Positions 11,915 to 16,920 of a stretch of DNA of 37,733 bases are shown here, in pieces. This DNA comes from Peptococcaceae bacterium. Lineage in GTDB: Bacteria > Bacillota > UBA994. The stretch lies in NCBI GenBank assembly GCA_018334055.1, contig JAGXSS010000001.1:1-37733 (forward strand). The letters are read 5' to 3'. A program made the translations under genes and the position numbers. How positions within the stretch are numbered: the first letter of the stretch is position 1; each line of letters begins with the position of its first letter. The notes beneath the pieces were generated by a model that was given only the letters and a program-made list of their open reading frames with translations, ran no database searches and was not told where the DNA came from.

Positions 11915-12066
11915 GGACTTATCCTCCCTAGCTTTGTAGAAACAGTAAGCACTTCAGTTCATCTTAGCACAGATTCAGTGTTTATGACACCAACTGATAC
12001 TTAGGCTTCACGGAACCCCCCTTTTTGCATAAGATATGATGAACTGCCAAAGGGGAGGGGAAAAGC

Positions 12067-14283
12067 ATGTCCAAAAAAAAGGCCGCAAACCCGGTTGAGA
12101 AAGAGATTCCAACGGAAAGCACCTTGTCATGGCGTAAGCGTCTAGAAAATGAGCGGTTGAAGCGCGAAAAACAAGTGAATGAGGCGCTCGATAAGGAGCA
12201 ACGGCTCCTAGATGTCGAATGGCGCAAGGTCGAACGGGCGAGAATTGACGAACAAGAAAGAAAACTGCTTGAAGCTATCGCCGATAGACAGGCCAAGCTC
12301 GAAGATGATTGGCTAATGCAAAGGAAAAATGAGAGTGAGAGTAAGGCGTTAGATTGGTTGCGTGAGAATCAACGGCGGGTAAGTGCCGACCTGCAACTTG
12401 GTATCACCAAGTTGCGCCAGGACATCGACGAGCGCGAGGTAGCATGGCAGGAACAACAAAATGGTAGGTTAGCGGAGCTTGAAATCGAGTGGGGCGAGAA
12501 AATGCGCCAGGAAATGCGAGAATTAGAGGTGGAATGGCGTGAGCAAGAAATAATGCATCGTGAAAGGGGACGCTTTGCCGAGCTCGAAAAGGAGCTTCGC
12601 GATGCGCAAGTAGCTACCATGACGCAGCAATTGGCAACTATGCAGGCCGACAGTCTCGCGATGCAGAAGGCGACCCTTGATGCCCACCTTTACCTTGAAA
12701 AGGAAGAATGGTCAACTCTGAGGGAAGCATTGCGCCAGGAACTGCTTGATATGCTGCAAAAGCAACAGCTGAAGGCACATAACGAAGCATCATGGTGGCA
12801 GAAGGAGATAGCGGATAGACTGCGGGAAGAAATTGTGGAATGGAAGAAGCAAGTAATAAGGCAAGTAGAAGTCGAAAACAGCGCATGGAGGCAAGATCAG
12901 GCCGAACAAACAGTGCATTGGCTGCAGTCTAATCTGGCAGTCTGGAATGAGCAGACTGCCGACATATTTCGGCAGTGGCTGGCGCGAGAAGAAGGGCAGC
13001 TCCGGGAGAAAATCTCGGCCATGGTTGAGGTGGTTAATTCTAAATACTTCGGTTCTTGGGAGGAGCGACACGACCAGGCATTAATAATCTGGCAGCAAAA
13101 GAGCGCCGAACTCGAGCAGCAGATTGTTAAACAAGTAAGCGGTAGGTTGGAGGGCTTCCTGCAAGTATGGCGGGGGGAGCAAAGCGCGGAAAACAGGTCT
13201 CTCTGCGACATAGGCTTCGTCCAGCTGAAGGAAAGCTTGGCACTATGGCAGGAAAGTGTGTTGGGCAGACTTAAAGAGCAATGCGCTCGTTATGTCGAGG
13301 GGGAGAGGAGTTCTTTCTTGCGTCAGCACGAGCAAGAAATAGAATTGATAGGTCAAGAACTGCGGCTTGACCTCGGCAAGATACTGGCGAGTAGCGCTAA
13401 TGCCTTGAGCGAGAACTATCAGCGGGAATTGGCGAGTTTGGGTCTTTCTTACCAAGAGAGCTTCGAGGCTGGTCAATCGGCCTGGCGCAAGGAGAATAGT
13501 CAAGCCTATGAAAGTCATCTTGGTGAGCTGCAGGCTGCCTGGCAGGAGCGGACGGATCTGTTGCTGCAAAGTATGCGGGGAGAGTTTTCGCAAGACATGA
13601 GGGATGCTCGGAAAAGGCTAGAAGGAGAAATGCTGGCTCAGCACCAATTGTCGGGCCAGGAGTTGCAGGCCGAACTGCAGAGAGAATTTGCTGCTCGCTT
13701 TGCGTTGTCGGTTATTGATTGGACATCGCTACTGGAGGCACAGTTAGGGCGATGGGACGTGGTTTGGGAAACGAGTCAGGCGGGACTTCAAGAGCAGATC
13801 GAGACATTCCAGAAACAAGTAGAGATGGCCCTTGAAGGAAAGATGCAAGTGCAACAAGCGAAGGTAGTCACTGCCAACCAGCAAAGCATTCAAGAGCTAT
13901 ACGCCAGCTGGACGATGGCAACAGGGGTAAAACTTGCAGAAATTGAAGAGGTGCTACAAAATGCCATCAAGAGAAATGTGGCTGGCATTGTGACCGACAT
14001 GGAAGAGGAATATGTGGCCAGACTGGACTCGCTGAAGGGCGATGCCTATCGTGAGTATCGGGGACGGCTAGGTAAAATTGTTGAAGAATTAGTGGAGCGT
14101 CACCAGCGCGAGATGACCAAGTGGCAAGAGCAGCACGACCAAGACTTCCGGGAGTACTGGGCAGGGGAACTAAAAAAGGAGCTGGTTGCTCAAATGCTAC
14201 AAACACAGCCTGTCGAAAAAACAGTCGCAGATAAAGACAAGGGGCGCAGAAAAGGAGATAATCGTGTACAATCAAGGAGGTAG
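12067..14283 (+). CDS. Large tryptophan-rich coiled-coil protein, unknown
   Basis: 738 residues, no signal peptide and no membrane segment; almost entirely charged helix rich in Glu, Gln, Arg and Leu. It contains 27 Trp, about three times the usual share. The first seven (residues 22, 52, 82, 97, 127, 142, 157) lie exactly on a 15-residue grid; later gaps include 11, 15, 19, 26 and 30. These are numbers expected for hendecad/pentadecad rather than heptad coiled coils. The last 25 residues are a basic tail. ATG at 12067 follows AGGGGAGGGG. The Lit-like gene begins 28 nt downstream. I cannot assign a family; a cytoskeletal, scaffold or spore-structure role is only a guess. Confidence 0.85.
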   Translation: MSKKKAANPVEKEIPTESTLSWRKRLENERLKREKQVNEALDKEQRLLDVEWRKVERARIDEQERKLLEAIADRQAKLEDDWLMQRKNESESKALDWLRENQRRVSADLQLGITKLRQDIDEREVAWQEQQNGRLAELEIEWGEKMRQEMRELEVEWREQEIMHRERGRFAELEKELRDAQVATMTQQLATMQADSLAMQKATLDAHLYLEKEEWSTLREALRQELLDMLQKQQLKAHNEASWWQKEIADRLREEIVEWKKQVIRQVEVENSAWRQDQAEQTVHWLQSNLAVWNEQTADIFRQWLAREEGQLREKISAMVEVVNSKYFGSWEERHDQALIIWQQKSAELEQQIVKQVSGRLEGFLQVWRGEQSAENRSLCDIGFVQLKESLALWQESVLGRLKEQCARYVEGERSSFLRQHEQEIELIGQELRLDLGKILASSANALSENYQRELASLGLSYQESFEAGQSAWRKENSQAYESHLGELQAAWQERTDLLLQSMRGEFSQDMRDARKRLEGEMLAQHQLSGQELQAELQREFAARFALSVIDWTSLLEAQLGRWDVVWETSQAGLQEQIETFQKQVEMALEGKMQVQQAKVVTANQQSIQELYASWTMATGVKLAEIEEVLQNAIKRNVAGIVTDMEEEYVARLDSLKGDAYREYRGRLGKIVEELVERHQREMTKWQEQHDQDFREYWAGELKKELVAQMLQTQPVEKTVADKDKGRRKGDNRVQSRR

Positions 14284-14311: not shown

Positions 14312-15028
14312 ATGCGCGGTCTGGCTGTCGTACTTGGGGTGTTGTTGGCAATAGCTGTGTTTCTTGCCTGTCTATCAGCGGCACTTCTTTGGGTTAGTTT
14401 TGATCGTGGTTTTTATGCCGCGGAGTTCACCGCTTTGGGTGTTCCCGCCGACCTCATGGTTGACTTGCCGACTCTCATGGGCTATACGGAAGTATTGCTT
14501 GATTATTTAAGGGGCGAGGTCCCAAGCCCAAACGTGGTAGCGACTGTGCGGGGGCGAAATGGACCGCTCTATGGTGAGCGGGAAGTGCACCATCTCAAGG
14601 ACGTTAGGGTGCTCATTGCCTTGGCCTTCTTGGTGCGAAATCTTAGCATCGTCTTGGTTTTGGCATTGTCGTCAATGCTCATTGTTATCCGGCAAATTAA
14701 AGAGGCAGCAAGGGCGTATCTGTATGCCGCAGCTGGCATCCTTGCTGTGCTCCTAGCTTTAGTTGTTTTAGTGGCAGTGGATTTCACCCATTATTTTACC
14801 GTCTTTCACCTAATCGCCTTCGACAACGACCTGTGGTTGCTTGACCCTGCTACCGAGTACTTGATACGCATGGTGCCCGAGCTTTTCTTCATTGCGGCGG
14901 CGCGGCGCATTGCGTTACTGGCCGTGGGTAAATTTGTGGCCTTAGGCTTAGCGGTCTTAGTGGCGGTTTCTCTTCACGCACATGCTGTTAAAAGAAACAG
15001 TACCCAGGTCTTCCAATCTACTCTGTAG
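14312..15028 (+). CDS. DUF1461/TIGR01906 membrane protein, Lit-like (lipoprotein intramolecular transacylase family)
   Basis: 238 residues with membrane helices near 4-28, 100-127, 136-158 and 200-225 and an outer loop between the first two. The loop motif EVHHLKDVRV (His93/94) and YFTVFHLIAFDNDLWLLDP (His166) match conserved features of TIGR01906/DUF1461 proteins. That family includes Lit, which in low-GC Firmicutes moves an acyl chain within diacylglyceryl lipoproteins to give the lyso-form N-acylated lipoprotein, using two essential histidines. ATG at 14312 has AGAGGAGG upstream. It is probably co-transcribed with the coiled-coil gene. Its last 72 nt overlap a convergent gene. Family membership is firmer than the Lit activity. 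Confidence 0.75.
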   Translation: MRGLAVVLGVLLAIAVFLACLSAALLWVSFDRGFYAAEFTALGVPADLMVDLPTLMGYTEVLLDYLRGEVPSPNVVATVRGRNGPLYGEREVHHLKDVRVLIALAFLVRNLSIVLVLALSSMLIVIRQIKEAARAYLYAAAGILAVLLALVVLVAVDFTHYFTVFHLIAFDNDLWLLDPATEYLIRMVPELFFIAAARRIALLAVGKFVALGLAVLVAVSLHAHAVKRNSTQVFQSTL

Positions 15029-15288: not shown

Positions 15289-16491
15289 TTACATGGCCAA
15301 TGAAATTCCCGCCATCGCGATGAGGACCGCGACGAGCGGCCATTTGTATTCGCGGTAAAGCGGCATGATCTTGCACTCGAAGTGAGCAAGGGTTACTACT
15401 TGACAGAGGTGTAGGGGAGAGGCAAAGTACCCCACGAGGGATGAGGAGTAGGCTGCGACTGTGCCGAAGACAACTAAATCAGTGGCAACCATGATCGGGA
15501 ACAAAAGGGGCATAGTAAGGGCTATCGCGGATGTGTTTGACGAAGAAAAGAAGCCCACCAGTAGTGGCAAAATAATAAAGAGGGCCTGGGGTGGCAAGCC
15601 GGAGCGGAGGAGTTGTTCAATGAGTGGGGGTAAGGATGCTACCTGGACAGTGACAGCCTTAAAAATCATAATACTGGCACCCGAAGCGATGATGGGAAAA
15701 TTAAGGCTGCGATAGAGCAGCCGAGGAATACCAGCCAGCGGCACTCCCCCTAGGTAAAGAGCCAAAACCAGCCCCACCAGAAGAGCTACCGGAAGGGGAA
15801 TATCTAAGGCGACAGTCAAAGTCAGACTCACCCACATCGGCGAAGTGAATTTTAGTAGTTCGTATATGTCGCGCCTGGTGGCCCGCCGAGCAATAGGTAT
15901 GTGGTCTGGAACCTTGTGGAGGTAGCTATAGTAACCGGCGACCAGCACAGCCACTGCTAGGGGTAGCTGCCAGGCAATGAGAGTGGAAATTTTAACGCCG
16001 GTGATGCTAGTGATTAGGACGAAGGCGGGCATCAGGGGGTAAACAAAGTACCAACCATGGCGGAACAATAAATTGATGGCCGAGAGCCGTTCGGGGGGCA
16101 ATTCGAGCTCTGCCCCCAGTTCTCGCACCGTGGGCGCCGACAAAATGGCTCCTCCGGTCACCAAGAGGGAGCCAATGATGGAAGGGACCAACATGATGGT
16201 CAACTTGGTGCTCCGGAGCACTATTTGTAGCAATTCCACCATGCGCGCGAGGAGCCCAAGTTCTTGCATGACGGCCCCAAGTAGGCTGATGAGACCAAGC
16301 GCCAGCATGAGGTCAATGGCCGCTGGCTCGACTAAGGCCGAGGCTGAAATCTGTAGGAGCCTGAGTAATCCCTGGCCTGAGGTCAGGCCGACTAACACTG
16401 CGCCAATAAGCAAAGCTAAGTACAAATGCACTTTGCGTTGTACGAGAAGAATGATGGCAACAAACGAGAACGCCAAACCGAGAAGATCCAT
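15289..16491 (-). CDS. DUF401 family integral membrane protein
   Basis: 400 residues with ten or more hydrophobic helices. LFRHGWYFVYPLMPAFVL near residue 150 and FFSSSNTSAIALTMPLLFP near residue 320 are typical of DUF401 proteins, which look like members of the ion-transporter-type (CitMHS/arsB/GntP-like) fold. The substrate is unknown. ATG at 16491 follows AAGGAGAAAG. The TM1266-like gene lies downstream on the same strand, so the two may be an operon. Confidence 0.82.
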   Translation of the reverse strand: MDLLGLAFSFVAIILLVQRKVHLYLALLIGAVLVGLTSGQGLLRLLQISASALVEPAAIDLMLALGLISLLGAVMQELGLLARMVELLQIVLRSTKLTIMLVPSIIGSLLVTGGAILSAPTVRELGAELELPPERLSAINLLFRHGWYFVYPLMPAFVLITSITGVKISTLIAWQLPLAVAVLVAGYYSYLHKVPDHIPIARRATRRDIYELLKFTSPMWVSLTLTVALDIPLPVALLVGLVLALYLGGVPLAGIPRLLYRSLNFPIIASGASIMIFKAVTVQVASLPPLIEQLLRSGLPPQALFIILPLLVGFFSSSNTSAIALTMPLLFPIMVATDLVVFGTVAAYSSSLVGYFASPLHLCQVVTLAHFECKIMPLYREYKWPLVAVLIAMAGISLAM

Positions 16492-16650
16492 GTTCTTTCT
16501 CCTTCCGTAGCAGGTAACTTTTTGGGAGATGATTTCAATTCATTATACAACGATATAGGCAAGTCTTCGCCCATTTTGTTACGGTTGCCATATTATTTTT
16601 GCCGGCATGGGGACATCAGACTGGGCATATCTATAGAGGGGGTGAGTGGG

Positions 16651-16920
16651 GTGAAGAAGCTTGGGTCTCTCGTTGCGGTGCTTGCTGTCCTTGGTATGTT
16701 CTACTTCGCTTTGCCGCGTCTCTCTCCGGCTAATCTGCATACCGGGGAGGGGTTGTTTTCGCTCGCTTGGCTAGTGCTCGCTGGGTGCGTGCTCATCGGT
16801 CATGGTTTAGAGTTGCGCAAAATTCGCGGACGCAAAAAAAAGATGGCCATCGTTTCACTGCGGCCGCCCAAGACTTTGGGGCATACGCCAAATAGGGAGC
16901 GACAGCGCGACCTGCGTTAA
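16651..16920 (+). CDS. Small two-helix membrane protein, hypothetical
   Basis: 89 residues with hydrophobic segments near 4-20 and 42-60, followed by a strongly basic cytoplasmic tail (RKIRGRKKK and RERQRDLR). GTG at 16651 follows GAGGGGGTGAG; the open frame extends to 16426 but would overlap the divergent DUF401 gene. No family recognised. It stands alone between the divergent DUF401 gene and dnaE. Confidence 0.5.
   Translation: MKKLGSLVAVLAVLGMFYFALPRLSPANLHTGEGLFSLAWLVLAGCVLIGHGLELRKIRGRKKKMAIVSLRPPKTLGHTPNRERQRDLR

Follow-up and report, generated by a model that had tools for sequence, protein, structure and literature searches.

Helices whose hydrophobic stripe recurs at more than about 3.6 residues per turn form right-handed supercoils. 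Right-handed coiled coils are rare, and most of them are short domains or exported fibres. The stalks of YadA-type trimeric autotransporters are long bacterial fibres built of 15/4 repeats, with a length that varies between homologues. Crescentin and FilP/Scy are long helical proteins of the cytoplasm, with heptad or mixed repeats near 3.5-3.64 residues. The VASP tetramerization domain is a right-handed coiled coil with a 15-residue repeat, according to the passages of PMC8203680 and PMC4721544 that cite Kuhnel et al. 2004, and the EG peripheral stalk of the Thermus A-ATPase contains hendecads, with a quindecad stretch in subunit G (PMC6131620).

The window analyzed here, the whole stretch of 37,733 nucleotides, encodes a 738-residue protein whose hydrophobic residues recur every 15 residues per four turns. 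Its gene has a good ribosome-binding site, as judged by reading the sequence. The coordinates, the length of the product and seven TGG positions given by an earlier sequence-only reading were all found to be correct when the DNA was read again. The features of the locus are as follows.

12052..12060, + strand: Shine-Dalgarno-like GGGGAGGGG, directly 5' of the start codon (sequence reading)
12067..14283, + strand: gene for the 738-residue pentadecad (15/4) coiled-coil protein (open frame, homologues, dN/dS of 0.20 against the nearest relative)
12067..12120, + strand: short polar N-terminal tail, residues 1-18, predicted to be unstructured (AlphaFold2 helix from residue 19; pLDDT below 50 for residues 1-15)
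12130..12606, + strand: conserved N-terminal block, residues 22-180, in ungapped 15-residue rows (row display, position profile, alignment)
12535..12606, + strand: WREQE..HRE (residues 157-166) and the subsequent shift in stripe phase (about 150-180) (sliding phase analysis, invariant columns)
12697..13686, + strand: 15/4 rod segment of near-constant phase, residues 211-540 (phase tracking, 15-position profile, alignment steps)
13321..13374, + strand: conserved mid-rod motif, family form RQHxxEIELxGQxxRxDL, residues 419-436 (invariant alignment columns)
13717..14202, + strand: C-terminal 15/4 segment, residues 551-712, phase-shifted relative to the middle segment (phase analysis, invariant columns, motif positions)
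14203..14280, + strand: basic, unstructured C-terminal tail, residues 713-738, with an Arg-rich end (net charge; pLDDT below 50 from residue 710)
14312..15028, + strand: lit-like membrane protein gene (TIGR01906/PF07314), 28 nt downstream (Pfam, NCBIfam)

Fourier analysis of hydrophobic residues (ILMVFWY) over the whole protein gave a peak at exactly 3.75 residues (15/4) with a power of 27.4, and the best of 300 shuffled sequences reached 6.3. The same analysis gave no heptad signal at 3.5 (power 0.3) and no 11/3 signal at 3.67 (power 0.0). The sequence-only reading had proposed this check, had allowed for either 15/4 or 11/3 periodicity in right-handed or untwisted coils, and had named a dominant 3.5 period as grounds for refutation. 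No such 3.5 period was found, 15/4 is retained and 11/3 is discarded; similarly, a right-handed supercoil is predicted and an untwisted one is not, as 3.75 is far from the natural 3.6-residue helix. Best-period powers in the four intact family members were 27.4, 33.5, 19.6 and 31.4 at 3.746-3.764 residues, with shuffle maxima of 6-11. Of the 76 open frames with 200 codons or more in the window and related loci, these four alone exceeded a power of 8, and the best non-family frame reached about 7.5 at a period different from 3.75. Autocorrelation of the sequence is dominated by lags of 15, 30, 45 and 60, along with 11, 19, 26, 34 and 49. On the 3.75 grid the phase of the stripe is near-constant from about residue 240 to 530 and again, in a shifted position, after residue 570; by sliding phase analysis, the phase changes at about 150-180 and 540-600.

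Within the constant-phase stretches of the four proteins, hydrophobic residues occupy positions 0, 4, 7/8 and 11 of 15 and span an arc of about 120 degrees, giving four core positions per 15 residues together with the 3.75 peak, as expected of a 15/4 coil. Charged residues are nearly excluded from this core arc in the four members (12 of 298, or 4%, versus 412 of 1197, or 34%, elsewhere). One flank of the core leans acidic (91 acidic and 52 basic residues) and the other leans basic (49 acidic and 65 basic), an asymmetry with a pooled p of 0.001 that is significant alone in two of the four proteins, and whose pooled significance is inflated by their relatedness. The core of the N-terminal block is weaker: apart from Trp, no more than about half of its core positions are hydrophobic.

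The protein contains 27 Trp residues (22, 52, 82, 97, 127, 142, 157, 215, 243, 244, 259, 274, 285, 293, 304, 331, 342, 368, 394, 473, 492, 552, 563, 567, 615, 686 and 698), the first seven of which lie exactly on 22+15k; both the count and the grid agree with the sequence-only reading. None of 200,000 random placements of seven Trp within 160 residues gave a single class modulo 15, and if any modulus from 7 to 20 is allowed, the chance of a seven-Trp grid under random placement is about 1e-4. The later Trp fall mostly at phases 4, 8, 12 and 0 modulo 15, four residues apart, which together make up one helical face. The 3.75 peak remains when Trp is omitted from the Fourier analysis (power 21.5), indicating that the Trp grid is one manifestation of a 15/4 period running through the entire protein. 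As to the unusually aromatic core that had also been claimed, Trp prefers one of the core's edges (-24 to -48 degrees), and the middle is filled by Leu, Ile, Val, Phe and Tyr.

Relatives of the protein are encoded in six other genomes, and the three full-length homologues have 756, 623 and 905 residues and 41, 33 and 29% identity, respectively. In the N-terminal block, where homologues are about 41-49% identical, the family sequences align gap-free in 15-residue rows with Trp at row position 1. Alignment of the three full-length relatives shows that the Trp spacing, on whose presence in homologues the original claim had been staked, is conserved: all seven N-terminal Trp are kept in two of them and five in the third, where Tyr and His stand in for the others. 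The WREQE..HRE segment and the phase shift after it are common to all four family members, YRGRLGK (residues 664-670, inside the C-terminal 15/4 segment) is invariant in the alignment columns, and the last 30 residues are basic in all four, with a net charge of +5 in the 738-residue protein and +3 to +5 in its homologues. The 15/4 rod segment differs in length among aligned homologues, and the spacing between conserved blocks differs by more than 150 residues among members. Relative to the 41% homologue, the internal length steps are -15, +11 and +11 residues, corresponding to -4.00, +2.93 and +2.93 turns; that these are near whole turns at 3.75 is no more than suggestive, given that the steps are just three and that the aligner may favour them. 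The dN/dS of 0.20 was computed against the nearest relative (95% identical, 396 codons), which indicates that the protein is under purifying selection.

In the nearest-relative genome (G001), contig C147 (L018:1-412) carries an intact N-terminal half; a second contig (L019) strings together pieces matching approximately residues 80-110 and 535-599 plus the final codons, owing to a chimeric assembly or to deletions within the gene where short stretches are alike. Compared with its counterpart in G007, the homologue in G005 (L017:8001-9129) lacks two internal stretches and is interrupted by a TAG stop; it is possibly a decaying gene or an assembly collapse.

All genomes with the coil gene belong to one bacterial family, in which seven of eight genomes carry it; it is absent from the seven other genomes of the class and from about 285 further genomes of the phylum. 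A scan of genome contigs returned a near relative, QLUC01000094.1, as the sole match. The protein matched no family in Pfam, NCBIfam, PHROG or PDB, and no known heptad family, consistent with the view that it has no described family; no membrane or enzymatic domain was matched in Pfam, NCBIfam or PHROG, and searches of phages, plasmids and viral contigs with the coil protein were empty. Several candidate matches were rejected. The one weak profile match elsewhere, in G166 (E = 1.3e-5, a 1008-residue frame), looks like an SbcC/Rad50-like ATPase without a 3.75 peak and was set aside as compositional; PDB matches to Skp/OmpH and ApoA-I were not significant; and the weak Pfam and NCBIfam matches each concerned one family member only.

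The neighbors of the coil gene in the window are the chromosomal housekeeping genes feoB, lit, dnaE and phosphofructokinase. The lit-like gene is probably co-transcribed with the coil gene in the source genus and is probably not functionally linked to it; in genus g2 and in G004 the two genes are on separate contigs. In genus g2 the coil gene is flanked by purA and by a histidine-phosphatase (phosphoglycerate-mutase-like) gene, the latter named from its sequence, and in G004 its neighbor is rsgA. Since neighbors differ among genera, there is no conserved operon that would hint at a function. Other families of the class were also searched for a 15/4 protein beside purA or lit, and none lay within about 1.5 kb on either side. 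In G006, a 1.4-Mb genome, the coil gene and most of the phosphoglycerate-mutase-like gene are missing from the end of purA onwards (L036:2700-4272), and only the terminal part of the latter gene is left; this is an apparent loss in this lineage, although errors are possible in draft assemblies. Judging from this absence and from the interrupted copy in G005, both in draft assemblies, the coil gene seems to be dispensable in some members. A lit-like match in G002 (L049, G002:C55:20238-20939) contains one TGA and one TAA, probably at its ends, because a 231-residue open frame exists there. Between dnaE and a DUF401 gene, the window also contains a 164-residue frame (16426-16920) that matched nothing in Pfam or PHROG.

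The AlphaFold2 monomer is helical from residue 19 to 712, with four short, low-confidence breaks (89-90, 327-329, 370-378 and 546-551) and unstructured tails; overall confidence is low (mean pLDDT 61, pTM 0.28), and this monomer-only prediction is informative for helicity and not for packing. We consider it fairly probable that the protein is a lineage-specific, cytoplasmic, parallel homo-oligomeric right-handed coiled-coil rod of about 100 nm, with conserved end blocks and a variable spacer. Residues 19-712 would form a near-continuous alpha-helix of about 104 nm at 1.5 A per residue, carrying the hydrophobic stripe of 15 residues per four turns with its core at positions 0, 4, 7/8 and 11. 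Two or more such helices would wind right-handedly round one another, as expected when 3.75 residues per turn exceeds the natural 3.6. In parallel coils unlike flanks face each other, and an acidic-leaning flank facing a basic-leaning one favours a parallel homo-oligomer. The conserved ends and the mid-rod motif may be sites of docking or end-to-end assembly, the variable middle may act as a spacer of adjustable length, and the basic tails may bind something anionic, whether nucleic acid, membrane or protein. The helix (as a prediction), the 15/4 period, the conservation, the scarcity of charge in the core and the purifying selection are established computationally, and from these features we infer handedness, oligomerization, parallel order and cellular function; the role would be that of a lineage-specific, non-essential structural rod or filament element.

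Among the other readings, the least improbable, though still unlikely, is that the same 15/4 helix is folded back or antiparallel, as intramolecular hairpins or as an antiparallel dimer. The phase shifts near 150-180 and 540-600 could be hinges or fold-backs, and the predicted helix breaks would fit such an arrangement; however, these breaks are of low confidence and only one coincides with a phase change, the unlike flanks argue for parallel packing, and segment lengths that vary freely between homologues would unbalance a hairpin. It is somewhat less likely again that a long amphipathic helix lies on membrane or lipid granules, in the manner of apolipoproteins, synuclein or perilipin, with Trp at the lipid interface. 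The position of Trp at the edge of the hydrophobic face does resemble interfacial Trp, and the weak best PDB profile matches are to apolipoprotein A-I (E = 0.011), which also has amphipathic-helix repeats. Yet a straight helix on a flat surface calls for about 3.6-3.67 residues per turn, and at 3.75 the stripe would wind round the helix several times in the course of 700 residues; apolipoprotein-like 11-residue repeats were not found at 3.67 (11/3 power of about 0), ILMVFWY content is only 27-30%, the core arc is narrow, and the ApoA-I match falls short of significance.

A low-complexity single alpha-helix, with an incidental hydrophobic pattern and without assembly, would account for a composition rich in E, Q, R and K, but it is already contradicted by the near-exclusion of charge from the core and by a period that is phase-coherent over hundreds of residues and kept at 29-41% identity, and we regard it as very improbable. 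Least credible of all is an origin in phages or mobile elements, for example as a tape-measure protein: the product is long, helical and variable in length, but it has no match in PHROG or among phages, plasmids and viral contigs, and its neighbors are housekeeping genes in the window and, with purA, in genus g2.

If the rod is as proposed, proteins that keep a single 15/4 register over hundreds of residues would provide a natural template for right-handed rods and a test set for coiled-coil prediction, which is usually heptad-tuned, and they may be cytoskeletal or spacer elements of a new kind in a bacterial family that has been little studied. More tentatively, and with our own judgement leaning slightly against it, the family might represent filaments or rods of a new class in the bacterial cytoplasm, made almost entirely of pentadecad right-handed coil of about 100 nm, which would exceed every coil of this type that we know of, and evolving in length by phase-preserving steps of 11 and 15 residues.

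Compared with known systems, the 738-residue protein shares with the VASP domain, as described in the citing passages, a 15-residue core repeat and, by prediction, a right-handed parallel coil; that domain is a short eukaryotic oligomerizer, whereas the repeat here covers about 690 residues, nearly the whole chain, and no sequence match to it was found in Pfam or PDB. With YadA stalks it has in common 15-residue (15/4) repeats and length variation between homologues, but those stalks are exported, with a signal peptide and a C-terminal beta-barrel anchor, and the protein has neither: no Pfam anchor, hydrophobic N-terminus or beta strand was found with Pfam, sequence or AlphaFold2. The Thermus EG stalk resembles it in its right-handed coil type (predicted here), in quindecads and in richness in E, R, A and L; it differs in being a 140-A heterodimeric coil with a globular domain within an ATPase, whereas the coil gene lies away from ATPase genes, and in Pfam and NCBIfam the protein matched no rotary ATPase stalk family (E, G, b and related) and the neighbors of its gene were unrelated to these. 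Crescentin and FilP/Scy are likewise long cytoplasmic helical proteins that may assemble, but theirs are heptad or mixed repeats, in contrast to a power of 0.3 at 3.5 versus 27.4 at 3.75 here. The repeat works like those of VASP, Thermus G and YadA in a protein that is a member of none of those families. Known occurrences of the 15/4 coiled coil are short domains, as in VASP and ATPase subunit G, and YadA stalks; a cytoplasmic protein made almost entirely of it appears to be new.
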